Source: Patagioenas fasciata (lineage: Eukaryota > Chordata > Aves > Columbiformes > Columbidae). From it: DNA of 64,000 nucleotides. Positions 217 to 52,115 of this stretch are shown here, in pieces (position 1 is the stretch's first letter; the number at the start of each line of letters is the position of its first letter). Position numbers and translations under genes: made by a program. The stretch is from assembly GCF_037038585.1 (NCBI RefSeq), contig NC_092520.1, positions 149,977,104-150,041,103 on the forward strand. The letters run 5' to 3'. The notes beneath the pieces were generated by a model. It ran no database searches, was not told the DNA's origin, and saw only the letters and a program-made list of their open reading frames with translations.

Positions 217-1867
217 AAAGATTATCTCATACAAATGATTAGGTGGTTCTTTGAACAACCTCACAAGCTTTAGGAATGAGCAGCTAGTATGGATATGGCA
301 ATCAAAATACAAGTATACCTTTTATGTGTAATAGTCATGTATGTTTGGGATTTTTTTTTCTTACTGCTGTGACTGATCTCTCGTTTTTTATTAATGCCTC
401 AAAAATTGTTTGAGAGTACACAGTAAATCAAGGAGGAAGAGAGTTTCTAAATCAGTCAGGTTACAGCAGGCAAGCCTGTATAAATAATACATTGCCTCTA
501 TTGTCTTTACAATGTGCTTGTGAAATCTGGACATACGTGGTTATCTATTGCAAGTCATGAAGACAGCTGGTTTGGAGAAATTTAAGAGTTATGGGACTGC
601 ATCAGAGAGGGTGGAGACAGACTTGTTAAGCTATTTCAGTGACAAAAAGCTCTCAAATAGCTGAGGTATGAATTTTGATCCAGATGATGGTAGATTGTGT
701 TCAAAAGGTATTGGGTTGAAAATGTGTAATTGTGATTTTTTGATCAGAAAAGAACTAAGCCTGACTTAGTCTAAATAGTGCCTCATGAGCTAACTCTAGC
801 TCATTGGAAGCTTTCATCTGCTACTATTGCTTGTATTGCAGTAATACTCTTTACTCTGTTAGCATACTGATCTGGTGCAGAGCTTATTCTGCAAGATTTA
901 CTGATTTAATTCTTGGCAGGATTATCAATTGTCCAGAATTAATTGCTATGAAAATACTGAAAACAGAGAAGCTAAATTTTCACTTCTGTTAAATGTGTTG
1001 CTTCCCACCCCCACGCCCTCCCCTGCAGTTTCAACTACTCTGACTTCCTTTTTAACAAGAGTAAAATCCATCCTCTGGAGGCAACCCGTATCTATTTTGA
1101 ACTGAGTAAATCTTAAGATGAAGTCTTCCTTTTTGCAATAGGTATTTGGACAGGCATGAGAATTATTCAGTAGTTATAGGTGTATCCTGTGAGAAAAAGG
1201 AAATAACTAAATCTGAAAGATTGTTTGTAGAACAGACAGCAGAATTAACACAAAGGATTAGAGATGGAAAAGGTGATGAAATGGTTAAACTTGTAGGTTT
1301 TGAGGGCTGGGTGAGTAACTAATAGCAGGTGGTGAATTTAGAAGATCATGGGGTAAAGCAATTTAACTGCCACGTATATCATTGCCTGGGGGCTTCTTTG
1401 GAACTATGGGGAAGGAGGTTGGATCATTGGCTTGTTTTCCACTGGAATCGTACACTCTGTCTAAATTCCAGGAATTAATGGTTTGTGGCAGCCTGGGGCT
1501 GGCTCAAACTAGAATGGTAACAACTTACCAAAAAGAAAATGCAGAGACTTTAATTACTTTGTTTGTGTGATTTGACTTTGCTACTGATTCTATTAGCCTC
1601 TGGACTGCAACTGTAGAACATTTTGTTTGAGAAGATTAATCAGTTACGGTAGAATTCCTTTCAAGCTCTGCAGTTATAGCACCTTTGAAAAGAGCCAAGC
1701 AAGAATTGTGGTTAGACTGGGACAGGTAGACTCTGTGCTTGTTAAATGCTGAAACATTTAATGTTCTTTGCAGGTCATGTAGTGTACCCCAGAAAAGTTT
1801 AGCCTTAATTAGGTGTGCAAAATGTTAGCTTTTTATTCCAGTGAAGTAGATTTGCTTTAACTGCAGA

Positions 1868-2030
1868 GTGTTGTGGAGTCTCCTTCCCTGGAGACATTCA
1901 AAGCCCGCCTGGACACATTCCTGTGCGACCTCACCTAGGCGTTCCTGCTCCAGCAGGGGGATTGGACTAGATGACCTTTTGAGGTCCCTTCCAATCCCAA
2001 ACATACTGTGATACTGTGTGATACTGTGTC
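1868..2030 (+). mobile_element. CR1 LINE, 3' fragment
   Basis: The sequence shows the standard avian CR1 3' end: the block around CCTTCCCTGGAGACATTC, the stretch reading GACTAGATGACC, the GAGGTCCCTTCCAATCCC block, and a terminal microsatellite of ATACTGTG units. It is heavily 5'-truncated (about 160 bp), as most CR1 copies are. It is in sense orientation to WNK1, in intron 4, about 1.4 kb upstream of exon 4a. Confidence 0.92.
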
Positions 2031-3119
2031 TGTTTTGTTTGAGTGCAACTGTAACAACAAAAAAATTTACAAGCAATGTCAAACTTCCAATATGCTTTAT
2101 TTGTGATACCGGTAAGCTCTGTTAAAATGGATATGGTAATCAACAGTTGATTTTTTTTTTTATAAAATGTCTAGCTAAGCAGTTGGAAGGACACTCAACG
2201 TAGCAGGATCTTTAATGACCCCTTTTCCTTTGCCATCTCTAAAGTTTCACAGCAGCTAGTGGAGAGGATTTCTAAAATGCCCAGTAATAGGTCAAAAAAT
2301 GTTGCTTTTGCAACACTGTTGTATGGTATAACAAGAACACTGGTATAGTTGTAGTATACTTGAGGAATTAAGTGTGCTGGTTTGGGATAAAAAGTGATCT
2401 TGATAATGAAAAGATTGAATTTTATCACAGTTTATCATCACTAGTTGGTCAAAATTAATTTGCTTGATTCACACTTTAAAATGGTGTACATTACCTTTCT
2501 TAGCATTGCTCATTATGTCCTTCCAAAAGCCCTGAAGCTGTGGACAACTCATTTTATTAGTAAACAAGTTTCACAGTGACTGTTTGAAGCTAAATACCAG
2601 GGGGGAAAAAAAAGATGTCAGACTTCAGGTTTAGGTTTGGAATTTAGCAAGAGGCATTAGACAATATAACTCTGTGGATTATTTATACACATGTGATGTA
2701 AAATAAACAACAATGCGGCTTTCTAACTTTTTCCAACAGTTTGAAAATCATTTTCAAATCTTTGTTCCCTTAGATTTAAGCACCCAGGAAAGGGAAAGCA
2801 GATGATGTTGCCAATGGTAGTAGAATGCAATAGTCAGGAAGGAGGGTGGTGGAGTGAATTATGTTATCCTAGTGCTGACTAGTGTTTTATTAGGGTTAAA
2901 TTGTAGTCAGCTGTATGTATGCTGCTGTAGCTCTGTGGAAAGAGGAGAAACAGCAGCTGCCTTTATCCCTCTGTACAAAACTACTGCCAGCAACCTTGGA
3001 TCGGAACACCACACTGGCCGACCTGTTTCCTCTGTTTAAAAGTGTACTTGTGCAGTGGTGGGAGTGAACAGGGTGATGACCCTAAGTGCAACACTAAACT
3101 ATGGCAGAAAACCTGGGTG

Positions 3120-3492
3120 GAGAATAATCAGAGCGTCCAGGCGGGGGGCGGGGACACGCGGGAAGTAAAGGATCCCTGTGCTGCCTCTTCTTCCTCCTCC
3201 TTACAGCTTAGCTGGGCAGGCAGAAAAGGATACCCTTACCTCTTGCTTGTATTGATTCTTCCTATTCAGTGGTTGAGTGGCAAAAGCAGATATTGAGCTC
3301 AAATCTCTGCAGCCTCATGTACTGGACTTGGAAAAGTACAAGAGGTATCAAACAGAAAACAATGCTCCCTTTTAACTTTGATGTCTGCTTTCCTTCCGCT
3401 GTGCGTTAAGTCCACAGCCTAGTGGATTCTCATCAGAAACTAGCACCCAACTAACTCTTTGGTGTGCGCATCTCTCTTTTTTTTTTTCCCTG
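3120..3492 (+). promoter_or_regulatory. Candidate KS-WNK1 internal promoter and 5' UTR
   Basis: This stretch just upstream of the exon 4a ATG holds a GC-box of Sp1 type (GGGGCGGGG, 3145-3153) with CpG-containing neighbours (ACGCGGG at 3155-3161) in an otherwise AT-rich intron. A pyrimidine run precedes the ATG (3471-3490). No convincing TATA box was seen. The start site is unknown, so this is inference from position and composition. Confidence 0.35.
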
Positions 3493-3582
3493 ATGGATTT
3501 TACAAAAAGAGAGGTCTGTCCCATATTTGTAATTGTTAATTCCCACTGCTGCTGCTGCTCTCACAAGGATTGCAGTAAAGAG
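3493..3582 (+). CDS. WNK1: WNK1 alternative first exon 4a (kidney-specific KS-WNK1 start), coding part
   Basis: An ATG opens a 30-codon frame, starting MDFTKREVCP, then IFVIV, then a run of four cysteines and one more cysteine near the end. It stops at GAG|GTAGGT, a good donor. The phase is 0, as needed to join exon 5 at 7836. In mammals, KS-WNK1 starts from an internal promoter in intron 4, and its exon 4a encodes 30 residues with a cysteine-rich hydrophobic segment (VFVIV) needed for WNK bodies in distal tubule cells. Length, composition, phase and location all agree. The product would lack the kinase core but keep the autoinhibitory, acidic and SPAK-binding parts (1980 residues if all constitutive exons are used). 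The 5' UTR limit is not defined. I compared with memory of the mammalian exon, not an alignment. Confidence 0.85.
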
Positions 3583-6500
3583 GTAGGTAAGAATTGCAGC
3601 TCTATAGAATAAGTGTGTGTACGCACAGGAAGGGATTTTGAGGATGAATCAAAATTCTTGATAGATCTGCTGAGCTGTTTTATGTTTGCATAGATTGTCT
3701 TTGACTTTTAAGCTTGACTGTACTTTATTCTCTATAATTTAAATGTAGATTAAAGTCCTGAACAGCAGTGCTGGAACACTTCTTGCTTATGGTATTTTCT
3801 GTCTGTGGTGTTATTCTAAATCTAACTGTTCTTTTAAATATGGGGTTGGTGAGGGTATGTAACACTTTGTCTTCATTTTGGTTTGGTGTAAAAGCTATAC
3901 GACACTGATTGTATCTTCTCTTATGAAGTAGATGATATTTTCAGTATCTCTTGCATTAGCACAAGATGCTAAACCACTGGCCTGGTAATCTGGTTATCTA
4001 ACTAATGCAAAAACATGTTTTTAGGCAAAAATTATGGAGAGGAGTTCTGGGTAGCATATACTTCAGTGTTTAAAGTATTTTGAAAATCTAGTGTTTTAAA
4101 AATACTAACTTGCCTAACAATACCTAACTTGCCTTTAATGGATCAAATAACCATGTAAATGTGGATGTTGAATTTTGGAACACACTTTTTTCACCGGATT
4201 GAAATCTGATACAATCACAAACTTTACCACATCTAAAAGAAATGAAATATGGAATTTCTTCTTATGCTTAACATGAAGACTGTGAGATAAGTATTTAGTT
4301 CTGTATCACTTGGGCTTTGTGCTACCTAGATATGTGCCCAGATTTTAGAGGTGCTCTCAAAATGTAAGTGTTCAGTGGGTTTTATTTTGAGTTGGCATTT
4401 ATTTCAAAAGAAGCAGTTCTACCCTTCTTAGCCATTTCATTTCTGCAAGCCTGAAAGCTGGTGCAGCAGTGTAGAGAACCAGGCTGGGGAGCTTCATCTG
4501 ACTGGAAACTGCTGCAGGCTTTTTTTGGCTGGATTTGTTTCAAGTCTGATAAAACACCATCATCTGGTTCATTATTCAGCTGCATAAATGCATGTGCCGG
4601 TAAAAGGAAGGAAATGGCAGAGGTGTGGGAATGGGAGATGGAGAATAGGAGATTGTAGCTTTCGACCGTGCTGCCAGTCCATGCTATTTTAGATAGCTTG
4701 AGAAAATGATGATGATTTTCATGTGTGTCTGTTATACCTATCTATACTCCCCCCTCCTCCCCCTCCCCCGGACCCTGCAAGAGCTCATCTTTCTTTAGCA
4801 AACTTGGAAGAATGCTGGTGAGATTTGGATGTTTAGTTCTCCTTGACTGCCACTAGGGAATAGGACTAAATTTGAGTTATCCTGGGTTGAATCCTAAGGA
4901 GTTTGGGGCTCAGGAGAGGCATATAGGAATGTGACCATCTTGCAGTAAGTATGGTGAAAACCAGGAAATACTGAATGGCTTAGTGTGTACTTGAGTGCCT
5001 TTGGGTTCAGAAAGTAATGAACGTATGCTTGGCTGCACAGCTCCTGTGCTTTTAAGGACACACCTCAAGGTTATGTGAATTGCAGGGCCTGGCCACCTTT
5101 GGTTTCTCTGTGATGGCAGGTTAAGGTGTATATACAGCTCTAGGTAGAAAAGGGTTTACTGATTTATTGATTTTCATCATTCATAGTATCCTCTGTCTTG
5201 TTATATAGTGCTTGGAGGAGGAAAAAAAAAGTTTTTAAAAGCTGATGGTACTTGAGTAGCCTGAACTTGACCGTAAGGGGTGCTTGGCCAGCACTTTTCC
5301 AAGAAGTGGAACAAACTGAGAAATAGGTAGCTGCTTGAACACAGAATCCTCTGTTGTTTTCAGGCCTCAGTGTGAGATTCTCTTCGATTTTCTGAGGAGC
5401 AGTTAGGAGCAGGGAAGCTATGCTGGAGGGGACTGGGAGGAGCTTCTCCTTCGAACTGAGCTCTTGGTTTGGAATTCACAGAATGGGATATTGCAAAATG
5501 GCCCTCATGGAAGGGCTTGAAGATTTTGGACAGGTATTTAATTTCTTTTAGGATACAGAAACACAGAGTAGCAGACTGAATCACTGATTTTTTTAAGATT
5601 TGGTCTTAGCTTTACTTTTTCAGGCTTCTTGCAAGAGCAGAGCACGTGGTAAAATAATTAACAAGAAAACTCGTGTTCTGGCTTTGTTACGTTAATATTT
5701 GCTGTACCAGTTGTCTTACTCATCTTAGGCTGTAGTTTTTCTGAAATTAGATTGCTACAGATCTGACATCTTCATTCTACTGTTACAGTGTAAGTGAACG
5801 TACACGGAGGCTGCTGTTCTATGGGGCTTGAGCTATTTTAGGAAACATAGACATGTTAAATAAACAATCTTTGGCACATTTAGGTAAAAATATGTACAAT
5901 AAGCAGTTACACAATTATTGCATAGGTTATGTATGTGTACACAGGAGTGTGTTTAATTATGGATAGAAACATCTGTCTCTACATATATGAGCCTGAACTC
6001 CTGGGACTATTTTAAGCTTGGTCATAATTAAAGGTGGGGGTGTCTGACTAGTCTGCTATATGAGCAGAGACACATGCAAACAGGTACTTGATGCCAGTAG
6101 TAAACACTAAAACTAGTTTCATAAATACCTTTATAGTGCAGGGCTCTGTGGTGTCCCGCAAGGGAGCGGGAGATTTATGGTATGACCTGGTTACAGTATT
6201 AAACTTACTCATCCAAAAGTTGTTCTGGTATCTTACCAGCTGAGGCATTGATCTCCAAAAGTCTAAATGTTCAGTGAAGCTTTTAAAAGGATTAGGTTAA
6301 CGTTCACTGACAGGCTGTGTTTCAGAGCTTACTGTAGTCATAACAGACTCTTCTGTGAATTTCAATTGCCAGAATCTCTTAAGAGCAAATTTTAGAGCAA
6401 AGAACTAGATAAAACCTTCCTGTTAAAACAACATTTTGGTTATCAAGTGAAAAACTGTGTCTTTCTATAGCTTTGAGGTTTTTCTTATACTTTCAAAAAT

Positions 6501-7835
6501 TCCAGTTACAACACCTTAGTAAAATGTAATGATTCATAACATTGTTGTCCACTGAAAGACAGGACTCTTGTGCTTCTCCCAGTCTTGCGTTTGCATCTTT
6601 TAAAGTTGATGTTGGCAGTGCCCTCTTCTGGAAGAGTGTGGTAGAGAATATTTTAGGTAGTGAACAGATGAAGTCAATGCGTTGTGATGCCTGGCCAAGT
6701 GGGGGAAAAAAACTATCTAAATGTAGATGGAAATTATTATTGTATTAAGTCTCCATGTTCAGTTACATGAAGGTCCGTAGTCGTAAAGGTTCTGGTTCAT
6801 AGACTTGAGACGAGTATATGATTTAAGGATTGTTTGACTTGAAAATGTGGACTCTTCAGATGACAGAATTTAAACAGGATGTCTTCATCCTCTCTCGTTC
6901 TGCTGTCTTAAATGCAGAGTTTGAAGCTAAAGGCTGAATCAAATAAAATCAAGTGCCGAATTTTGCTGTTGCGGACAATTGCCCCTGAATTGGAGCTGCT
7001 GGCTATGATTAAGTGATGAAATTTGGCTCTCTGCCTGCAGTGTTTTGCAGAATTCCCAGATGGACATATCTCATGGCCTGTCTACTTTATAGATATGAGT
7101 AGCTGATCATACTTCGATTTTATTTTGCTTTCCCACAATGGCTTTATCATATATTGGAGAAAGGATTGCTGTGTGTTGTTGGAGGACTGTAAAGATCTGT
7201 ATCGCTAAGCTAATTTTCCTGAACTCAATAGCAGTAATGCAGGAGTGTGGTTTGAGCATAGTAGGTCTTCTCAGAAGAGCTAAGATACAGGAAAGCTTTT
7301 AAAAAAAATAATAAAAAAAAATTATACACTATGCAAGTTATTTAATGATCCAGTCAGATATTCCGGGCTAAAGTTTTTCCTGTAAAATCAATCTATGCCA
7401 AAATTACTTCGTATAGTGACATGTCAGAAACATTCTGGGAAGCAGCAAATTCCTTTGAAGACTGTGAAGTTAGTCATGTGGGTTCATGCATTAGTGTTAC
7501 AAAGGAAACATTTAATTCTCAGTCCTGTCTGTGCACTCACCTCTAACCAATGTAACTTCCATGGAAATTAAATAATTCTCTTATCATTACTGAGAACCTG
7601 TGTGCCAAAGCCTTCTGTTACAGAAATGCAGCTGAGAAACAGGGAGGAAGAAAAGCTTTTGCAAAAGTCACTAACAAACAGATGAACAGTAAGATTTGGG
7701 TCAGATTTTTCTATAATTTGCACTAGTAAGGAATTCAGGCCAGTTATCTGTTGAATAAAAGTGGTTGGTCTGTAAACACAATCAAAACTTAAATCAAATG
7801 AGCCTTCTAGTTTCTCTGTTACTTGTATGTTCCAG
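3583..7835 (+). other. WNK1 intron between exon 4a and exon 5
   Basis: This stretch is noncoding AT-rich sequence ending in the exon 5 acceptor TTCCAG. I found no repeat family, RNA gene or supported open frame in it. An A-rich run lies at 7301-7321. Confidence 0.6.
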
Positions 7836-7924
7836 GGTGTCAAGCCAGCCAGCTTTGATAAAGTAGCAATCCCTGAAGTGAAGGAGATTATTGAGGGATG
7901 CATTCGGCAAAACAAAGGCGAAAG
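7836..7924 (+). CDS. WNK1: WNK1 exon 5 (kinase C-lobe)
   Basis: The 89-nt exon starts in phase 0 with GVKPASFDK and ends inside an Arg codon (AG|A) at GTAAGT. It encodes the [13 protein letters not shown] helix near the end of the kinase C-lobe. It is the first exon shared by full-length WNK1 and KS-WNK1. Confidence 0.97.
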
Positions 7925-10900
7925 GTAAGTGCTTTCTTTTCAGGTAGAGATATTACTTATTGTCTGAGTCTTTTGCCTGTGATGATACCAGATCCAGTTA
8001 CTTCCTGGGATGTTCTGTCTTCTGCTGAAAGTTGGGAAGCCAATGTTACTTCTGCAGCCTCTATTCTTTGGTAGATTCTTATTCAATGATTGTTCTAGGG
8101 AGTTAACAGTGTCAGCAAAAGTACACATGCAATAGTAACCATCCATGTCAGTTTATTCAGAAATTGTACAACTTTTATTAAAAATTTGACCGAGTCAGCA
8201 AAATAGTGAAGGACAATTCTTCTGGCTTTCCAGGTATTTGGACTGTTTGGTTGGTTTTGGCCTCCCACTACTCTGTTCAGAGTTAGTTTTGTCAGTCCTT
8301 TTTGATTAACTCTTGAAGTTTAGTGTCGTCTGGCATTGGTGTGTATTTTTAGTTTTTGTTATTTTTTCTTAGTTTTAAACAATTCTGATTTTTTTTTTTT
8401 TCCTGTTTTTATGTGATGTACAGCCACAAAATTAATTTCTTGCCATTTAGTTTAAGTGGTTAACTTTTAGATTACTGCTGTTAATGCTGTGCATATATGA
8501 ACATAGATCTTTTTTTGTACCTTCAGGACAAAACTTCTAATTGTGCCAAACAGAATGCAAGTTGAACTGGTTCAGAAGAGTATAAAATATGAACAGAATC
8601 ATGCGATGCTTATCTAGTGCTGAATTTACTAGATGAGGCTTTTGATAAGATCTTGAAATAGAATGAAATACATATTTGGATTTCTGTACTGATTTGGAGA
8701 CTAAGGGTTTTGTGTTGGATTTTAATGTTTGGTAAAACCGTTCTTCAAGGTTTCTTATTATTTTAGTCAATATATATCCTGTTCAGCTGGCATAAATCTG
8801 TTGGCATGTCTTCTAACCATTGTGTCATATTTTTTTTTAATATATCCTTAGCGTTGTTGCATTTTGTTTCTTCATCATGCTTTTAAATAGAAATTTGAAT
8901 GATGGGCTGTCAAATACATGAGGGAAGTGTGAAATGTAGAAGGGGGGGGATCACCAGGCAAAAATGTTTCTTAGTAATTTATGAAAACATAACTGTGTGT
9001 GCTTTCTACATACTTTCCCAATATGCTAGATATGCTATTAAGGACCTTTTGAATCATGCCTTCTTCCAAGAAGAGACCGGAGTACGGGTAGAACTGGCAG
9101 AGGAAGATGATGGAGAAAAAATTGCCATTAAACTCTGGCTGCGAATTGAAGACATCAAAAAACTGAAGGGCAAATACAAAGATAATGAGGCAATAGAATT
9201 TTCCTTTGACCTGGAGAGAGATGTCCCAGAGGATGTAGCACAGGAAATGGTAAGTGTTGGTGGTCTTACAAATCCTCGGAATTACTGGCATTCTCTGGCA
9301 GTGAAATGTAGTCTGTGAGTCTCTGCATTTGCTGTTGTTACCATCTGGAAATAAACCCGCTTCAGAAGTCTGCGAACGAGAAGTTAGTGCCAGAGAACGG
9401 TAGCTTATATTGTAGCACTGCAACAGTGGCTGTCTGTGACAGTCTGAATTCTGTGAATGTATCCTCCTTCAGGTGGAATCTGGCTATGTCTGTGAAGGGG
9501 ATCACAAGACGATGGCAAAAGCTATCAAGGACAGGGTATCTTTGATTAAGCGAAAGCGAGAGCAGCGTCAGTTGGTGCGAGAAGAACAGGAGAAGAAGCT
9601 TCAGGAAGAAGGTAGTCAGAAGCAGCAGCTGGAGCAACAGCAACCATCAAGTGCTTCCCATGCAGGGTCAAAGCATGCCCTATCTGTCACTGGTACTACT
9701 CCTGTCCCCACTACTTCAGCATCGGTTTCTACACAAGTGGAGCCTGAAGAACCAGAGGCTGATCAACACCAACAACTCCAGTTCCAGCAACCCAGTATAT
9801 CTGTTCTTTGTAAGTGTGTCAGTTGGTTTATTTAGGAACTCTTGCACTTACACAATTCCCCGCTTTAGAATCTTAAACTTCTGGTGGATTTAGCAGTAAA
9901 TATCTTAAGATGTTGCTGTCTGCCATTGCTGTCTGCTGAAGAACATGAGACCACTAGAAAGCACAGCACAATAAGATGCTTTCCTGTGCCTTAGCGGAGC
10001 CAAGTCTTGGCACAATTCGCAGTCCAGTGTCTTAGCACAAAATCATTTTCCTTTGTTACAAATTAATTCACTAAATTAACTGGGGTGCCTGAAGCATGAA
10101 CACAAGTTTTAGTTTTTGCTGCCCTCCCATAGGGACAGTATATTCCAGCCCTGTGGAAGGCTGTATACTCTTGCACCAGTGCAGTTAGAGCTATTAGAAA
10201 CACTGATGTGAATCCTTGTAAATTTACATGTAAGGTGGGAGTGAGATTAATGTACAAGCATTTCAGCTTATAATTTGCTTTCTGAAAAAAGGTTTCATTT
10301 TCTGTTTTACATACTATACATGAAAAGATGAATTAAAACTCTAACTTTTCCTCTTTTGCCATCCCAACATATGTATCAGTATTTGAATAATCATGGTAGA
10401 TGAAAACTTGTGTATTAGAATGGTGAAGTTAGAAAGCAACTTACTATCTGCTTTTTTAGAAACAGGGTTTTAAAATTCTCTACTATGCCTACATCAGGTT
10501 CATCTCCCAGCCAGCACAATAGACCAGTATTATATGTCTGTGTAAAATTAAATAAATAAAAATAAGTATTTAAAAATCCTGAAAGATCACTGATAACAAT
10601 GTGGAATTTAAGTTTCTGTTTCTAGTCTAGCCTTTCATAAGAAGCATAGTTAAGTATCTTGCCAAAGAACTCCTGAAATTGCTGATTTTTTTCAGAGTTT
10701 GGGGGAAGGCATATTGATAAGGAATTACTGTATTGAGGAAGAAAAAAAGACATTTTTAATGAGCTTAAATATTATGAGGTAAAATGCTGACAAGGTCCAT
10801 GTGACATGGCACAAACATCAGTCTAATATTTGATTGATTATAATAAAATCTTTAAAGTAACGAATCCTGACTGCAGTTCTTGAAATGCAGATTTTTATCT

Positions 10901-13900: not shown

Positions 13901-16900
13901 CCCTATGGGCCACATCGGTGACCCCAGAGAAAATATTTTCTCCTTTATGTTCTGCATTCCACATGCTTCTTGTAAGGGTGCTAGGCAATGTCCCACACTA
14001 CTCAGTGACCTAAGGCAAACTTGGGTCCTCAGAGGTGCACATAGCCTGTTCCCAGTGTGTGTTGGCATTCATTCAGCATTTCTCATATCTTCTTGCACAC
14101 ATAGTAGTCAGTATTGGGCCTCTCATTGTGTGTCTGTGTTTCTCCTCTACCTCATTATAGTTTTTGCTGGTTTTGTTTTTCATTTTGTTTTGAAGTGTTC
14201 AATTCTTAACTTTTGTTTTCCTCCTTTAGCCTCAACGTGATCGTAGCATGTCAGTTTGTGTCCCCCACCTTCCTGCTCTTCCCTCTATGTCCTGCATCCC
14301 TCTCAGTGCTCCTTGTACCCCACCACCAGCGCTGTCTGCACCTCTTTCTCCTTTCTACCTTCGGACTGTCCCTGAAGAAACCTTTGCAGAAAAGCTTTCT
14401 AAAGCCCTGGAAAGTGTCCTGCCCATGCACTCAGCCTCTCCACGCAAGCATCGACGCTCCAGCCTGCCCTCCCTCTGTGTCAGTCCTGTATGTGTTACCA
14501 TTTGCCTCCTGGCACAGTAAGATAAGTTATCATTAAATACATCCTGAGCTTCGGGCATTTTTAAAATGAGAAAATGAAGAGCTGATTCCTTATTCCTTAT
14601 ACTGTGCTGCTGGAACGTTGATTTTTTTTTGGAAAGCAGTACATTAAACATTATCAAACAGTTGAAAACTGTTCGTTTCTTGTATTTGAGGATAGTAGAA
14701 AAGTGAATCAGCCACTTGTACCAGAGAACGTAAAGGGAAGACTAGTTCTTATGCCCTTAAATCAGAAGACCAGCTTATTTTCCAATTTCTAAGCAAACAT
14801 TGAATATTCATTAAACCATCCATAAAACAACCAGCTCTTAAAGCTTGGTTGCTGTGCCTGGTTATTCTAAAAGTTTTGGCTAGCTGTGGTAGTAATAATA
14901 GAAATTCATAGCATTAATATGAAAACTTTTGAGAATTTTTCAGTAAGTTTTTATCAGAAATGCCACTTCAACTGCTGTTTGATGGGGAAAAAGCCGTTGT
15001 TTCGTGTTTCTCAGAAGATTAGATACAAGGTAGCTTTCTGGACAGGATGTAGTTCTCAGTTTTGGGCTTCAATTTACATTAAATAAATTTTGAGAAACAC
15101 TTCCCTGTAAGTGAAGTATGTGGAACTAGTTTTCAGAATAGGAAGAGTTCTTCATCCTGTATGACCTTCTTGTTAGTGTTGGTCAATATGGAAATTTGCT
15201 GCTGCTTTTCCAGAAAAAGGGTCTGTGGAGAAACGGAACAATGTGGAATTGGCAACTTCTCAAAGTCATAAATGGCATCTGTCTTAAAGACAGCATATTT
15301 GTTGCTGACTTTGGCAGGTTTTTTCTTTTCCCTTTGGGTTTGATAATATGTTGTTTCTCTACATACTGTAAGCAAGAGATTAAAAAAATGCAGAGTTACA
15401 AAGTTACTTGGTATGCTTACATAGAAGTCTCTTTAGTGAAAAGTTCCCTACAAATCTTAAGTAAGATGAGCCTCATATGCAGTAGTACATCAGACGGAGT
15501 GGAATTACCTGTGGACTCCACTGTTAATAAACCTGTGAATGTTTTATTGTCCAGACAAGAATTAGACTTATTTCAGTGAGTAGTAATATCTTATGTGAAA
15601 AGTTATGATTAAAACTGATCAAAGGGATCCAAACAGATGATCAAATTGGGCAGAATCAAAAGGCTCTGCAGTATTATAATAGATTTTTTCCATCTGTGGG
15701 CTGGAATGGTTCAGTTTTGTCTTGTACAACATATCTCTGTAGCTCCCTGGATTGCATACAGACCACACTCCTGACAGGACACTAGCACTGGGTTTTTTGT
15801 ATTGAGTAATATTAAGATTTAATGCCGTTTTAGCTTTTAAATGCGAACTAGAAGCTCTACATTGTTGCTGCTATCAAGTTCTGAGTTTTCATATTCCTCA
15901 TATGGCAGTAACTGCAGGGGTTTGATTGGCTTTCAAGCGCTGATCACAGTGGATAACCTGTGAGTATAAATCTCATTACACTGTCAGGAGCAAAACTGGT
16001 TTATATTTGTGAATTACTGGAATTGGACTGGAAAAGCAGCTCTAACACGAGCAAATGTTTCCATTTGTAGCCCTGCCCGCCATGGATGTATTTAATGGAT
16101 ATTTACAACTCACCTAAATTTCCTAACTATTGTGTGTTTTTGACCATGAATTGAGTAGTCATTCTATAAAGTTACTTCACAGAACTGCCTAGTGAACTGT
16201 GCATGTTGATGTGCTTTCACTTTTAATGTATGAATTACTTGTCTTGTTCATGTCGATACAGCCTCAGCATCCGCGTGGGGGAACACCAACGTTCCCAGAT
16301 TCACAGATATTTTTCCCAACCGTTCATGAACGGCCGGTGTCTTTCTCACCACCACCTGCCTGCCCGCCGAAGGTGGCAGTCGCTCAGCGGCGCAAGAGCA
16401 CTTCATTTTTGGAAGCCCAAACTTGCCACTTCCAGCCATTGCTGAAGACTGGCCAGAATTTAGTTCCACCTGGTGGTAGTCCCACCAATTGGACACCAGA
16501 GGCGTTCGTTATGCTGGGCACAGCAGCTCAGAGAGTCGCTGGAGAGCCTCTGCATGTGCAAGTTAATCCTGTGTTTGAGCCAGCTCCTGTCCACAGTGAC
16601 TATAGATCTGGACCAACACCTCCAGAGGATGCTCACTACAGAATGCATCCAGAAGCTGTATATTTGGTGGGCATGCACTATCCATCACAGGTATCGGAGC
16701 AGTATGATCAAGTAGCTTATAACTCTCATGCGACTGAACATTTGAAGCAGGTCTCTGAGTCAAACCATGGGCAAAGTGGTCCTCCACAAAGCTCTGTGTT
16801 CGACTTTCAATCGGGGCAAACATATCTGGCAAGACATATTCAGAACCTGAGGCTGGATTCTGGCATGGGTCCCCTTTCTCCATTATCCAGTGTTTCAGCT

Positions 16901-19900
16901 CCTCTGAGTGCAGATCCTGCTCAGATGACGTTCCACCAGGTATTTGTTCCGCACTCTGCCCCAGCTGTGCTCTCTCACAGTGGTGATGGCAGAGCGAGCT
17001 GTGTCTTTGAGTTCCATGTCCACACACCGACTTCTGCTCCAGCAGAAGGGGCAATTTTACCCCAGCGAGTCTACAGAAGTCGCCGGGGCTCTATGGAGAC
17101 CAGTCAAGAGGAATCCACTCAAGGCGTAGGGTCGCACGGTCGGCTTCAGCCTGTGACAGAGGAGCAGTGTCACTATCTTGGTCCCGAGTTAGCAGGTCCC
17201 AGAAGGGGCTCTGCCAGGCGGAGCTGGCCGGAAGGAAGCCCAGAATACTCCAGTGATTCCTCACAGCTGACTTCCTCTGACACTGGCGATTTCCAGTCTC
17301 CTCCTCCTACAGGGGGGTCATCTTCTGCTTTTGGTTCAGACTTCTCATTGCCCATTGTTCAGCTGCCTCAGAAGGTATTGCAAGAGTCGCAGCTCTTCAT
17401 CTGCTTCCCCCAGGGAGCCTCGACTCAGCAGGCCTTGTCCACCTCGCTTCCATCAGGACCACCTGCACTCTATCCTCAGGTTACAGGAGCAAACCCTTCC
17501 AGAATTTCTCTGCTTTTTATAAGTCATACCTTGTACTTTAAGGGGACCCTTGTTCTTACACTTGCTACATGTGGTTCTAAGTATTAGCATTCATGGGGAT
17601 GTCTTTCCACCGAGTCAGTAGTACATTAGGATCTCTTTAACTTACCAAGTTGCAATGAAATAATGGGACATCAGCAACCACTTGGTCTGTGTTCAGCTTC
17701 AGCTGAAATCCTGGCCAGGCTTTTGTGTTGAGGTTAACAAATGGTCAGTGTTCCTCCTGGGATTAGTTTGGCTTTTGGCGAGAAATAGCTGGAGTACCCG
17801 ACTGGCTTTTAAGCAGTGGGTTTAATGACATGTGTCTTCTCCAGTTTGAACCAGCAGCGATAGTAAAACTTGCTTTGTATTTTTGTTCCTGCTCCTTAGC
17901 TATTTAATGTGTTATTTGAAGTTGAACTTCTGTATGAATAATGTTTCATTAGATAACAACAAAGTTAATTTGATGGCTGTCCAAAACGCAGGAGTTTTTT
18001 TCTGGCCTTGGTGCGAGAACGTGAGAAGAGAGGAATCGAAGGAGCTGTATTATGTCCTTGTACGTGGTTTTGGAAATGTATTTGCAGGATCGTTAGAGAA
18101 CTAAAGCTGAGTAGTAAATTAGTGGCACAAACAACTGTTGCTATTAATAATAGATATTGTTCCTCATAAGCCTAGAACATGGTGTGCCTTTAAAAACCAA
18201 AATGTGAGGCCTAAAGCTTACTTTGGAGGTACACGTTTTATCAGCATATGTGGTATTTGAACTTGCAATAGTCAGTAACACGTTTGTACACTGTGACTGT
18301 GAGGCGTATGTGTGTATAGATTGTGTCTGCACTTCTAGTTTGAAACTTTTCATAAGAATTTTGTTTGTGAAAAGAGAGGATTTACTTTAAGTAGACTTTT
18401 CTCCTTGCTCTTTCTGTTCTTGGAATTAGGGGTTCTCTGATGTTTTAGTTATTGGAGTATTAGCAACTTTTGGATTTGTGTGAAGGAACCGAAGGAGAAT
18501 ATTTTTTTGCTTTTTGTGGTAAGATCAAGAACTCAGTATTTAAGTATTTCTGTATAGGATGCAAAGGTGTTTTATTAAAGCTGAAACAGCTTTAATCACT
18601 AGTCTAATAGACAGTAATTTCTATGCTGTAGGAGAACTTGTGGAGTGAAGCTGTTACTCAAGAAGTATGAAAATTACTTGGGGATTGTTTCTCCATAAAC
18701 CACCTGTGTTAAGCTTCAGGAGGTGACTTCTGATGGATGTAAATTACATCTGGAAAACACAATAAGGGATCATGATTATTTTACAGAATAGAAGTTTTGG
18801 GATCTTTTATCTAATTCATTAAAATATTAGAATTTGAAGCACAAACTGTGAGTCAATGTGAACAGATGTTACAGCAGGGGGATATAGCACGTGTTTAGAT
18901 CCTAGCCCATGAGGGCCTCGAGCTTCTAAAACAGCAAAGAAAAAAATGGTTCTTTTTATTGGCAATCTGCTTTCTCCAAAGTTTCTATAATTTACAGTAG
19001 TATGTAATTTTAATAAGCTTGTTCCTAATAAGCTTCTACAAGCTAAACGATCACAGCATTCAGGAATTTTAGTAGACATTTCTGATATGATACATATGCA
19101 CCAGATGTTTTTCTTACAAAGGCAGTTAACCAAAGTGGTGCATGTTCAGAGAACTCATCTGGAGGTCTTTGTCTACTTGTCTCCCAGGATCTGATAAAGA
19201 AATATAATAGTCACAAAAATAATAATGCAAATCCTGGGATCTGATAAAAAATGTCAGCCACAAAAATAAGAACAAAAATTCATTCCATTTTCTTCTACAT
19301 CTTCCACATTCATTTGTATGCCACTCATCCATTTTTTTCGTTGCTTGTTCATTCAGAAATTCTGTCTTAGCTAGAACATTGACCGCCAGATTCTTCAGTG
19401 TCCAATTATTGAATGGTAGTGAGTCTGAAAATTTTTTCTGTCTCGTATTTTGACATGCCTTTCAGAGGGAACTCATGACATGTACATGTACTGGGTACTT
19501 TGTTACTGGTCTAGAATGCTGTATATCTTTTTTTTGTTTGTTTTTTGTTTTGTTTAACAGATAGCTTTGTTTCCTTCTAGCTGCCTCCTACCCCCCACCT
19601 AACTGTGTTTAGAACACATGTAAAGGTAAAACTTAATGCCTGTATTTCCAGTTATCATACCCAGGCATCCTGCTCTTAAAGCGTCATCAATGGAAGAAGC
19701 AGCTGGTAGGCTGATCTGTCTCATGTTGAGGGGCATGTGGGTTGCAAAGACTTCCTGTATTGGTTGTTTTGGAAGACTTAAAAAGGAGTTCAGTAGTTTT
19801 CCAGGTTGTTCTGCTTTGTTCTGGCTGTTGTCGTTGTATTTGACCAAAAGGACTGGTTGTCCTAAAAGACAGCTAGAAACCTGTTCCAACCAGATCATTC

Positions 19901-51800: not shown

Positions 51801-52115
51801 GGCCCTGGAATGGCAAGAAAATTCTCGGCACCGAGTCAGCTCTGTATCTCTATGACATCTTCCCTGGGTGCTACGCCCATCTCTGCAGCATCAGCTACCT
51901 CTTTAGGTCCCTTCACAAAGGCCATGTGCCCTCCACAGCAGTACGGTTACCCAGCAGCGTCTTTCGCCGCTCCGTGGAGTGGGACAGGTGGTCCGGCACA
52001 GCCGTCGCTCGGCCAGTTCCAGCCCGTAGGTGCCGCGTCTTTGCAAAGCTTCAGCATCAGCAATTTGCAAAAATCAATCAGCAACCCTCCAGGCTCCAAC
52101 CTGCGGACCACTTAG
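7836..52115 (+). CDS. WNK1: WNK1 serine/threonine kinase, exons 5-28 (5' part outside window)
   Basis: WNK1 is a chloride- and osmolarity-sensing cytoplasmic kinase that phosphorylates SPAK/OSR1, which then control NCC, NKCC and KCC cotransporters. I joined 24 constitutive exons: 7836-7924, 9030-9249, 9473-9809, 10914-11101, 19987-20058, 20662-20811, 21863-22336, 23444-23725, 24396-24487, 25059-25221, 25734-25850, 27624-27797, 28588-28639, 28807-28947, 29296-30716, 33243-33326, 37779-37865, 38524-38593, 40140-40219, 40777-41435, 42393-42595, 43720-43914, 50940-51127, 51801-52115. All are GT-AG, every phase joins, and the sum is 5853 nt (1951 codons with stop). The order of segments follows human WNK1 as I remember it, from GVKPASFDK in the kinase C-lobe to the C-terminal [11 protein letters not shown]. 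Numbering as human exons 5-28 is by homology. Exons 1-4 lie upstream. Optional cassettes are listed separately. Confidence 0.97.
9030..9249 (+). CDS. WNK1: WNK1 exon 6 (end of kinase, autoinhibitory/PF2-like domain)
   Basis: The 220-nt exon runs from [12 protein letters not shown], the end of the kinase fold, through the PF2-like domain [13 protein letters not shown] to DVAQEM. The FSF motif of the WNK autoinhibitory domain lies at 9199-9207. The acceptor is TGCTAG, with a weak pyrimidine tract; the donor is GTAAGT. Confidence 0.97.
9473..9809 (+). CDS. WNK1: WNK1 exon 7 (coiled coil and KLHL3 acidic degron)
   Basis: The 337-nt exon carries [13 protein letters not shown], then a charged coiled coil ([14 protein letters not shown]), a Ser/Thr-rich linker and the acidic motif [10 protein letters not shown] at 9740-9769. 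In mammals this acidic motif is recognised by KLHL3/CUL3, and its mutation causes familial hyperkalaemic hypertension. It is intact here. The exon ends in phase 1. Confidence 0.96.
10914..11101 (+). CDS. WNK1: WNK1 exon 8
   Basis: The 188-nt exon encodes [16 protein letters not shown] followed by a Gln/Ser-rich stretch ending PPAA, in phase 0. It is followed by two optional cassettes before exon 9. The human counterpart reads [16 protein letters not shown], by memory. Confidence 0.95.
12770..13130 (+). mobile_element. Degenerate CR1-type LINE remnant
   Basis: Diverged blocks match the CR1 3' region in order: GGGAGAGAATTCAGAGAAGAGTG at about 12780, GGAGAGAAGGCTG at 12889, AAGCCCAAATTGCAGCA at 12970, TCTAACCAACAAGGGCAGTT at 13016 and CTCCATCAGTGGAGATGTTT at 13048. 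The copy is much more eroded than the CR1 pieces at 1868 and 51210, so it is probably from an old subfamily. The edges are approximate. Confidence 0.6.
13398..13500. repeat. A/C-rich low-complexity tract
   Basis: Purely A and C-rich sequence made of AAACC and AACC-like words, interrupted by CACACA. Such tracts are common in bird introns. It is translatable only as a Lys/Thr/Asn/Pro string and is not a gene. Confidence 0.85.
14230..14487 (+). CDS. WNK1: WNK1 alternative exon between 8 and HSN2 (neural-type cassette)
   Basis: A 258-nt (86-codon) phase 0-0 cassette with acceptor CTTTAG and donor CCT|GTATGT. It encodes [16 protein letters not shown], a Ser/Pro-rich part, then the well-conserved [19 protein letters not shown] and [11 protein letters not shown]. 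The same segment precedes the HSN2 block in long human nervous-system isoforms, as I remember them. It is spliceable in or out without a frameshift. Confidence 0.9.
14488..16261 (+). other. Intron between the two exon-8 cassettes
   Basis: 1.8 kb of AT-rich noncoding sequence. I see no repeat family or supported exon. Confidence 0.6.
16262..17479 (+). CDS. WNK1: WNK1 HSN2 exon (large neural cassette)
   Basis: A 1218-nt (406-codon) phase 0-0 exon with acceptor GATACAG and donor CAG|GTTACA, which is weaker than its neighbours. It encodes [79 protein letters not shown], and [15 protein letters not shown] near the end, all recognisable from human HSN2. In humans this exon is included in sensory neurons, and its truncation causes hereditary sensory and autonomic neuropathy type II. 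The frame is open throughout. A 163-codon open frame on the opposite strand (16563-17054) is a shadow. Confidence 0.95.
17480..19986 (+). other. WNK1 intron before exon 9
   Basis: 2.5 kb of noncoding sequence. It contains an imperfect tandem duplication of about 47 bp (19186-19279, two copies sharing GGATCTGATAAA and CACAAAAATAA). I see nothing else in it. Confidence 0.6.
19186..19279. repeat. Imperfect two-copy tandem duplication
   Basis: Two adjacent copies of about 47 bp both contain GGATCTGATAAA followed after a short A-rich spacer by GTCACAAAAATAA or GCCACAAAAATAA. It is a small local duplication without apparent function. Confidence 0.65.
19987..20058 (+). CDS. WNK1: WNK1 exon 9
   Basis: A 72-nt exon encoding [17 protein letters not shown] and a Gln/His end, parallel to human QGQSQGQPSSSS. 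A second AG six bases inside (CTCTAG|ACACAG|GTAC) could serve as an alternative acceptor and drop two residues (Thr-Gln). The phase is 0-0. Confidence 0.92.
20662..20811 (+). CDS. WNK1: WNK1 exon 10
   Basis: A 150-nt phase 0-0 exon encoding a Gln/Ser/Thr-rich linker ([15 protein letters not shown] ... [13 protein letters not shown]). It matches human APPQQTVQYSLSQ ... VLPQVSAGKQ in position and composition. Confidence 0.92.
21863..22336 (+). CDS. WNK1: WNK1 exon 11 (proline-rich, alternatively spliced in mammals)
   Basis: A 474-nt phase 0-0 exon starting [20 protein letters not shown] and ending LPAGDALYQ. It is rich in Pro, Val and Gln. In mammals exons 11 and 12 are the variable proline-rich cassettes that differ between tissues. 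Their 0-0 phase here allows the same skipping. Confidence 0.95.
23444..23725 (+). CDS. WNK1: WNK1 exon 12 (PPxY-containing proline-rich cassette)
   Basis: A 282-nt phase 0-0 exon beginning [20 protein letters not shown]. The PPQY at 23462-23473 is a PPxY motif, a class bound by NEDD4-family WW domains. NEDD4-2 is reported to act on mammalian WNK1 isoforms that carry these proline-rich cassettes. [15 protein letters not shown] is also conserved with human. Confidence 0.94.
24396..24487 (+). CDS. WNK1: WNK1 exon 13
   Basis: A 92-nt exon encoding [13 protein letters not shown] and ending SSMD plus two bases of a Ser codon (phase 2). It corresponds to human STQGVSQVAPAEP ... LASSVDS. Confidence 0.92.
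25059..25221 (+). CDS. WNK1: WNK1 exon 14
   Basis: A 163-nt exon encoding [20 protein letters not shown], then a basic stretch [20 protein letters not shown] and RPKLRILN, where the second PF2-like (CCT-like) domain begins. It is almost identical to human. Confidence 0.97.
25734..25850 (+). CDS. WNK1: WNK1 exon 15 (second PF2-like domain)
   Basis: A 117-nt phase 0-0 exon encoding [19 protein letters not shown] and [15 protein letters not shown], the core of the second PF2-like domain. This fold type binds RFx(V/I)-like peptides in SPAK/OSR1 and WNKs. Confidence 0.97.
27624..27797 (+). CDS. WNK1: WNK1 exon 16
   Basis: A 174-nt phase 0-0 exon: [20 protein letters not shown] then [20 protein letters not shown]. 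It closes the second PF2-like domain and begins an acidic linker. Confidence 0.97.
28588..28639 (+). CDS. WNK1: WNK1 exon 17 (short)
   Basis: A 52-nt exon encoding [17 protein letters not shown] and ending in phase 1. The matching human segment is KLEGEFKQPIPASSMPQQI. Both splice sites are strong (TTACAG, GTAAGT). Confidence 0.94.
28807..28947 (+). CDS. WNK1: WNK1 exon 18 with SPAK/OSR1 docking motif RFIV
   Basis: A 141-nt exon encoding [20 protein letters not shown] and PVPESRL. RFIV at 28854-28865 is the first of four RFx(V/I) motifs in the C-terminal half, which dock the CCT domains of SPAK and OSR1. Confidence 0.97.
29296..30716 (+). CDS. WNK1: WNK1 exon 19 (large Ser/Thr/Pro/Val-rich exon)
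   Basis: The 1421-nt exon is the longest constitutive one here. It starts near [20 protein letters not shown], passes through a low-complexity Ser/Val/Pro/Ala region and ends with conserved [20 protein letters not shown] and [18 protein letters not shown]. The low-complexity part is diverged from human, while both ends are conserved. It begins in phase 1 and ends in phase 0. Confidence 0.96.
30717..33242 (+). other. WNK1 intron 19
   Basis: 2.5 kb of AT-rich sequence without recognisable repeats or exons. Confidence 0.6.
33243..33326 (+). CDS. WNK1: WNK1 exon 20
   Basis: An 84-nt phase 0-0 exon encoding [20 protein letters not shown] and FPGPSLTQ, nearly identical to human. Confidence 0.96.
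33327..37778 (+). other. WNK1 intron 20
   Basis: 4.5 kb, noncoding and AT-rich, with a G/T-rich then C-homopolymer stretch at 37543-37596. I recognise no repeat family or extra exon in it. Confidence 0.6.
37779..37865 (+). CDS. WNK1: WNK1 exon 21
   Basis: An 87-nt exon encoding [19 protein letters not shown] and ending TSAPAC at TGT|GTACGT. An overlapping GT two bases earlier (GTGTAC) would break the frame with exon 22, so 37865 is preferred. Confidence 0.93.
38524..38593 (+). CDS. WNK1: WNK1 exon 22
   Basis: A 70-nt exon encoding [20 protein letters not shown] and LKD, ending in phase 1. It aligns with the human segment VSMAAPTAITEAG. The acceptor is CTGTAG and the donor GTAAGA. Confidence 0.9.
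38594..40139 (+). other. WNK1 intron 22
   Basis: 1.5 kb of noncoding sequence with a small alternating AT/GT stretch (39887-39929). No exon was seen. Confidence 0.6.
40140..40219 (+). CDS. WNK1: WNK1 exon 23 (first part of an RFQV motif)
   Basis: An 80-nt exon encoding [17 protein letters not shown] and ending LQMGRFQ. The second SPAK/OSR1 docking motif RFQ|V is split by the intron after Gln (40211-40219 plus 40777-40779). Confidence 0.94.
40777..41435 (+). CDS. WNK1: WNK1 exon 24 with two RFx(V/I) motifs
   Basis: A 659-nt exon starting [12 protein letters not shown]. It carries RFQV at 41029-41040 and RFSV at 41065-41076, which dock SPAK/OSR1, then [20 protein letters not shown] and [10 protein letters not shown], the start of the C-terminal coiled coil. 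It ends in phase 2. Confidence 0.97.
41436..42392 (+). other. WNK1 intron 24
   Basis: 957 bp of noncoding AT-rich sequence with a short A run (41882-41894). Confidence 0.6.
42393..42595 (+). CDS. WNK1: WNK1 exon 25 (C-terminal coiled coil and basic stretch)
   Basis: A 203-nt exon encoding [20 protein letters not shown], the coiled coil associated with WNK-WNK interaction, followed by [19 protein letters not shown], a basic stretch that could act in nuclear import or lipid contact (inference). It ends in phase 1. Confidence 0.97.
42790..42831. repeat. Poly(T) tract
   Basis: About 40 nt of T broken by two C. It is a simple repeat in intron 25 with no attached element. Confidence 0.9.
43720..43914 (+). 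CDS. WNK1: WNK1 exon 26
   Basis: A 195-nt exon encoding [20 protein letters not shown] and [19 protein letters not shown], ending GPGQ plus the first base of a Gly or other codon (phase 1). It can join exon 27 directly or the 26a/26b cassettes. Confidence 0.96.
43915..45295 (+). other. WNK1 intron between exon 26 and cassette 26a
   Basis: 1.4 kb of noncoding sequence that contains the foldback element at 44280-44473. No other structure was recognised. Confidence 0.6.
44280..44473. mobile_element. Foldback hAT-type MITE (194 bp) with target-site duplication
   Basis: The two arms, about 90 nt each, are inverted copies with only about five differences, joined by a loop of about 12 nt (ATAGGAGTAGTT). 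The left end reads CAGGGGTGTCAAACTGATTT. The reverse complement of the right end reads CATGGAGTGTCAAACTGATT. TCTAGAC flanks both sides (44273-44279 and 44474-44480), seven of the eight bases expected for a hAT target-site duplication. The CAGGGGTGTC terminus is hAT-like. No transposase is present, so it is nonautonomous. Confidence 0.85.
45296..45367 (+). CDS. WNK1: WNK1 alternative exon 26a (neural-type cassette)
   Basis: A 72-nt phase 1-1 exon with acceptor CTCACAG and donor CTGA|GTACGC. It encodes [20 protein letters not shown] and RFL. It matches a segment found in mammalian nervous-system WNK1 isoforms between exons 26 and 27, as I recall it. It can be included alone or with 26b without a frame change. 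Confidence 0.9.
45368..47764 (+). other. Intron between cassettes 26a and 26b
   Basis: 2.4 kb of noncoding sequence with a T-rich run shortly after exon 26a (45420-45463). I see no further exon or known repeat. Confidence 0.6.
47765..47806 (+). CDS. WNK1: WNK1 alternative exon 26b (42-nt microexon-like cassette)
   Basis: A 42-nt phase 1-1 exon preceded by CTTCAG. It encodes [14 protein letters not shown], a basic Cys-containing peptide, and ends at A|GTAATT, a weak donor. Joined to exon 27 the next residues are RTSST. The human neural isoform carries the same peptide next to the 26a peptide, by memory. Read-through of the donor would reach a TGA 13 codons later. Confidence 0.88.
47807..50939 (+). 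other. Intron before WNK1 exon 27
   Basis: 3.1 kb of noncoding sequence. No repeat family or extra exon was recognised. Confidence 0.6.
50940..51127 (+). CDS. WNK1: WNK1 exon 27
   Basis: A 188-nt exon encoding [20 protein letters not shown] then [20 protein letters not shown] and DAMNLSGKK, ending SNYE in phase 0. [12 protein letters not shown] is strongly conserved among WNK C-termini. Confidence 0.97.
51210..51592 (-). mobile_element. CR1 LINE, antisense 3' fragment in intron 27
   Basis: On the + strand it begins with the CR1 3' end in reverse (ATAGAATCACAGAACAGTTT, GGTTGGAAGGGACC, TCCAACCCCCTGCCATGAGC) and continues through ATTTCTTCCTTATGTCTAAC to CAGGCTGAACAACCCCAAC. It is about 380 bp, 5'-truncated and well conserved, so relatively young. 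It ends about 210 bp before the last WNK1 exon. Confidence 0.95.
51801..52115 (+). CDS. WNK1: WNK1 exon 28, terminal coding exon
   Basis: The last coding exon starts [20 protein letters not shown] and ends [13 protein letters not shown] before TAG (52113-52115), which is essentially the human C-terminus. The acceptor is TTTCTTTCAG. Confidence 0.98.
   Translation, partial: GPGMARKFSAPSQLCISMTSSLGATPISAASATSLGPFTKAMCPPQQYGYPAASFAAPWSGTGGPAQPSLGQFQPVGAASLQSFSISNLQKSISNPPGSNLRTT

Follow-up and report, generated by a model that had tools for sequence, protein, structure and literature searches.

Organisation of the locus

The window, the whole stretch of 64,000 nucleotides that was analysed, carries on its plus strand the part of the WNK1 gene that extends from a point inside intron 4 through the last coding exon (Table 1). 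The gene was identified by exon alignment, by the match of its autoinhibitory domain to a WNK1 structure (PDB 2lru) and by the Pfam domain OSR1_C. A probe from exon 4 had no credible hit, the best one in the window lying on the minus strand with an E of 1.4, and the window therefore appears to start inside intron 4. The coding part of exon 4a lies within this intron, and the next coding exon found downstream of it is exon 5, which is common to L-WNK1 and KS-WNK1. In the same intron, the segment 1860-2020 resembles the 3' terminus of an avian CR1 element, and a 463-codon open frame at 16196-17584 resembles the HSN2 alternative exon of WNK1; the latter was kept out of the gene model used here. 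Downstream of WNK1, and in the opposite orientation, lies RAD52 (57298-59504, minus strand), where the frame 58898-59140 is matched by PDB chains of RAD52 (E 6.1e-10) and the frames beside it were judged by eye.

Table 1. Coordinates of the WNK1 features within the window
Feature	Position	Strand	Basis
WNK1 exon 4a, coding part, predicted KS-WNK1 start, 30 codons	3493..3582	+	frame; orthologs in 64 other named tetrapod species; human exon 4a score
Phase-0 5' splice site GTAGGT of exon 4a	3583..3588	+	7.4 bits
Second (tandem) donor GTAAGA, frame-breaking	3587..3592	+	10.6 bits, top of 439 GT sites in 1000-7800
WNK1 exon 5, 29 residues plus two bases of a further codon; kinase domain ends here	7836..7924	+	exon alignment; same exon 4a-exon 5 joint in database proteins
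WNK1 exon 6, autoinhibitory domain (CCT-like/OSR1_C)	9030..9249	+	PDB 2lru, E 1.5e-35; Pfam OSR1_C
WNK1 exon 7 with KLHL3-binding acidic motif (11 residues)	9473..9809	+	exon alignment; motif as printed in a section of PMC8174809
WNK1 last coding exon	51801..52112	+	exon alignment; stop codon next, at 52113

Among 23 WNK1 proteins compared, the gap-free identity of the window protein is highest to that of the crane Grus (95.1% of 1825 positions). A FastTree phylogeny of 1655 columns, from which exon 4a was excluded, places the window bird among the neoavian birds and outside the Galliformes; this tree has a branch with a support of 0.544 beside the window bird, wrongly draws Apteryx inside, and sets Apteryx, Bubo and Limosa on long branches that perhaps reflect poor models.

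A 30-codon frame in intron 4

The ATG frame occupies exactly 30 codons and is directly followed by GTAGGT. In the window bird it encodes the peptide MDFTKREVCPIFVIVNSHCCCCSHKDCSKE (translation of 3493-3582), which has six cysteines (C9, C19-22 and C27) and a hydrophobic run, IFVIV, at residues 11-15. An earlier note on this DNA had picked out the frame as the bird counterpart of exon 4a. Translation bore out its coordinates to the base, and the alignment with human exon 4a is gapless with 18 of 30 residues identical; the identification is further upheld by the score of the human peptide, by the in-frame joint to exon 5 and by orthologs in the databases. The note's account of the composition needed amending: the four consecutive cysteines are there, but the total is six rather than five, C9 having been missed, and the hydrophobic stretch given as FVIV is the larger part of a run of five. 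All six cysteines stand at the positions of those in the human exon (human protein, row P0089).

When the first 30 residues of P0089 were scored without gaps against all six frames (BLOSUM62), the human peptide reached 122 at 3493, and its second-highest score anywhere in the window was 27. Forty simulated 64-kb windows, generated as order-1 Markov sequences, gave best scores with a mean of 26.9 (sd 5.0) and a maximum of 44. Searches of Pfam and the PDB with the 30-mer by itself returned no match. A single-sequence AlphaFold2 model of the 30-mer has low confidence (mean pLDDT 68.6, pTM 0.25) and contains two short strands (residues 12-15 and 18-21) and no long helix. An amphipathic helix is described for mouse residues 1-72 in part of PMC12321387; the model is not strong enough to be given weight in either direction.

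Splicing and transcript start

Joining 3582 to 7836 preserves phase 0, as the earlier note had proposed in calling GTAGGT a donor that fits exon 5, and the frame stays open on through exon 6. The score of this site is reached by 7 of the 439 GT sites in 1000-7800, itself counted; the matrix was built from 17 donors of the same gene, some of whose ends were picked by eye, and these donors themselves score between 3.7 and 12.6. Exon 4a has a tandem donor, GTAGGTAAG, with the two sites spaced 4 bases apart (window 3583-3592: GTAGGTAAGA), and the downstream site, of which the note makes no mention, outscores that at 3582. Use of this downstream donor, 3586|GTAAGA, would break the frame and lead to a stop after 8 extra codons. 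Since the database proteins of other species have the phase-0 joint, productive splicing is expected to use 3582.

A long pyrimidine run lies immediately 5' of the exon 4a ATG, and the 40 bases preceding the ATG contain no AG. Three short ATG frames start upstream at 3317, 3362 and 3381, all of which end before 3493 and could form part of the transcript leader.

Orthologs across tetrapods

Residues 1-70 of the joined exon 4a-exon 5 model gave 5789 database matches, and the best 120 of these were examined. Exon 4a adjoins exon 5 in 112 of the 120 (rows P0002-P0113), which comprise 12 bird species, 5 turtles, an alligator, a garter snake, 40 mammals, 5 frogs and one row without an organism. The exon stands at the N-terminus in 91 of the 112 rows, while other sequence comes before it in the remaining 21; exon 4 precedes it in Panthera and Molossus, for example, and its first residues are replaced in P0093 and P0110. 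In some predicted WNK1 proteins of carnivores and bats (P0042, P0044, P0051, P0073 and P0093) exon 4 is read into exon 4a in a cassette-like manner. Shorter queries of residues 1-40 recovered rows that carry both the OSR1_C and WNK CCTL2 Pfam domains without exception, 91 of 91 with the window sequence and 88 of 88 with that of the frog Pelobates, and the identifiers of the latter are all found among the best 120 matches to residues 1-70. Fish, coelacanth and lungfish are absent from the organism-named rows of these three sets (the best 120 of 5789, the 91 and the 88; P0056 is nameless), a gap that is no proof of absence in a protein search relying on shared 5-residue words and annotated proteins.

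The database proteins with exon 4a are mostly automatic predictions, and sequences in the database are grouped into clusters at 90% identity. The expectation that the exon would be missing from automatic annotation does not hold for birds in general, as it opens the WNK1 proteins that the database has for 12 bird species. A row with 100% identity, as expected for the bird's own protein, occurs neither among the best 120 of 5789 matches to residues 1-70 nor among the 91 matches to residues 1-40; the annotation of the window species may lack exon 4a, or one of the 90% clusters may conceal a copy.

Within exon 4a the window bird is identical to grouse (Tympanuchus) at 27 of 30 residues, and to crane (Grus) at 26 of 29 and zebra finch (Taeniopygia) at 27 of 29. 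Outside birds the identity is 25/30 to both alligator and loggerhead turtle, 21/30 to garter snake, 22/30 to sheep and 17/28 to Pelobates; the gaps in the crane, finch and frog comparisons were set by hand. At the protein level the exon is strongly conserved with respect to turtle and alligator; the identity between bird and turtle, free of damage to the frame, suggests selection on the protein.

Preferred and alternative readings of the frame

A frame of 30 codons is too small for ORF statistics by themselves, and cysteines come trivially from a TGC repeat. That the open frame and the cysteine run are both accidental is nevertheless refuted by a human exon 4a score of 122 where simulation reached at most 44 in 40 windows, and by orthologs that share the joint to the same exon 5; the probability left to such a coincidence is negligible. 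A genuine exon might still be decaying in this lineage, its sequence remaining after transcription or productive splicing was lost. Such a relic could be suspected from the frame-breaking donor at 3586, the best in the scanned stretch, and from the five of six cysteines found in 19 of 20 sauropsid species tallied. Yet the frame is intact, 25 of 30 residues are those of the turtle and likewise of the alligator, the phase-0 joint is used in database proteins of 12 bird species, and the window bird has kept all six cysteines and the entire hydrophobic core, all of which makes decay very improbable.

A different question is whether exon 4a is an internal exon of L-WNK1, spliced from exon 4 through 4a to exon 5, instead of a first exon. 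The long pyrimidine run right before the ATG would suit a cassette of this kind, exon 4a lies outside the first 36 residues in 21 of the 112 rows, and predicted proteins of some mammals (Panthera, Molossus, Canis, Vulpes) do run from exon 4 through 4a into exon 5. Against this, the 40 bases before the ATG offer no AG, exon 4a is N-terminal in 91 of the 112 rows, all 12 bird species being among them, and transcription of human and mouse KS-WNK1 begins at exon 4a according to the relevant part of PMC3365125. We regard the internal exon as very improbable too, at the same low level as decay.

The preferred reading is an alternative first exon: in this bird, which is probably neoavian, 3493-3582 very probably constitutes the coding portion of WNK1 exon 4a, with a predicted splice from 3582 to 7836. 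The frame has 30 codons, a phase-0 donor, an in-frame joint, the hydrophobic core with six cysteines, and orthology to the known exon. Judged from the sequence, it is a real frame and the bird ortholog of WNK1 exon 4a, first coding exon of the kinase-deficient KS-WNK1; the latter role is the most likely one by orthology.

Variation in cysteine number

The 112 rows yielded 64 named species, each of which entered the cysteine tally with a single protein, and the organism-less P0056 was omitted; the tallied rows are predicted proteins, and shared ancestry reduces the counts to few independent events. Six cysteines are present in 38 of 40 mammals (Meles meles among them) and five in the other two, both macaques. 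Four of the five frogs have six and Xenopus has five; in Ranitomeya the six are placed differently, with C9 absent and five in the run. Among 20 sauropsids, the window bird counted, 19 have five of the six and the window bird alone has six. Eleven neoavian species have lost a cysteine of the run, the grouse C9, the alligator C21, the garter snake C20 and all five turtles C27.

The four cysteines of the run are encoded in the window by a perfect four-copy TGC repeat (3547-3558), at which the 11 neoavian species have three. Slippage by one codon, as gain or as loss, is an easy route in such a perfect repeat. In mammalian KS-WNK1 the function is partly impaired when two of the six cysteines are changed and abolished when all six are, as reported in a section of PMC8174809. 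We offer as a speculation, and a rather doubtful one, that the 'six conserved cysteines' are not fixed and that the sauropsid exon repeatedly settles at five; if the number of cysteines governs the strength of condensation, birds would provide naturally occurring dose variants of this WNK-body motif.

Possible function and prior knowledge

In mammals, KS-WNK1 is transcribed from exon 4a and restricted to the kidney (PMC3365125, in part). Both WNK bodies and NCC activation depend on the 30 residues of mammalian exon 4a, which also heighten the sensitivity to CUL3-KLHL3; the published hydrophobic core comprises residues 11-15 and is accompanied by six cysteines (sections of PMC12321387 and PMC8174809). 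In the bird, a putative internal promoter in intron 4 would start the transcript at exon 4a, and this transcript would be spliced from 3582 to 7836. By analogy with mammals, the exon 4a motif would let the protein scaffold WNK4, L-WNK1 and SPAK/OSR1 in condensates of the distal tubule, the WNK bodies, and would confer sensitivity to KLHL3-CUL3; the KLHL3-binding acidic motif is retained in exon 7 of the bird gene. That this bird uses such a promoter, expresses the transcript in its kidney and relies on it for WNK bodies is inferred from the mammalian systems.

The earlier note had further argued that a bird exon 4a would move the origin of KS-WNK1 back in time. The antiquity of the exon is already in print: a passage of PMC8174809 states it, citing Boyd-Shiwarski et al., and one of PMC12321387 places the emergence of exon 4a at the water-to-land transition with two references (one from 2018). 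PMC8791634, cited by PMC12321387 for the water-to-land origin, nowhere mentions WNK1. Beyond birds, exon 4a is also found in database WNK1 of turtles, alligator, snake, mammals and frogs. These published passages and database proteins rule out both a novel discovery in birds and a shifted origin. The identification is right, and the exon is already known, published as ancient and annotated in many birds. Among the papers examined, from a collection with few subscription titles, none dealt with KS-WNK1 in birds, and no paper in that collection combined WNK1, kidney-specific and avian kidney. KS-WNK1 and coelacanth occur together in two papers, one of which uses the word in connection with a different gene; a review from this pair is also where KS-WNK1 appears beside reptiles and beside birds. 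Among the 20 papers listed of 75,036 with at least two of the terms KS-WNK1, evolution and chicken, the one with all three has chicken as the name of a promoter.

What the present analysis adds is a confirmation, at the level of sequence, that birds have retained exon 4a, of which mammals need the 30 residues to form WNK bodies. Because they keep it, the bird kidney is a fair place in which to test the age of the potassium-response machinery.

Comparison with mammalian and other avian exons

The window exon resembles exon 4a of human and mouse KS-WNK1 in its gene and intron, its 30 codons, its phase-0 joint to GVKPASF of exon 5, the hydrophobic core at residues 11-15 and the six cysteines. It differs from the human exon at 12 of 30 residues, three of which lie in or beside the core (P10, I11 and V15). 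Residue 11 is isoleucine in the window and valine in the human exon; in the mammalian protein, the change of V11 to alanine abolished the ability to activate NCC (PMC8174809, in part). Closer to home, in 12 other bird species, including Taeniopygia, Grus, Theristicus and Tympanuchus, predicted isoforms of WNK1 share the same exon and joint and have exon 4a at the start. In 11 of these 12 birds exon 4a is 29 residues long and its run comprises three cysteines, whereas that of the window has 30 residues and a run of four; Tympanuchus also has four in the run and lacks C9, while the window bird possesses all six.
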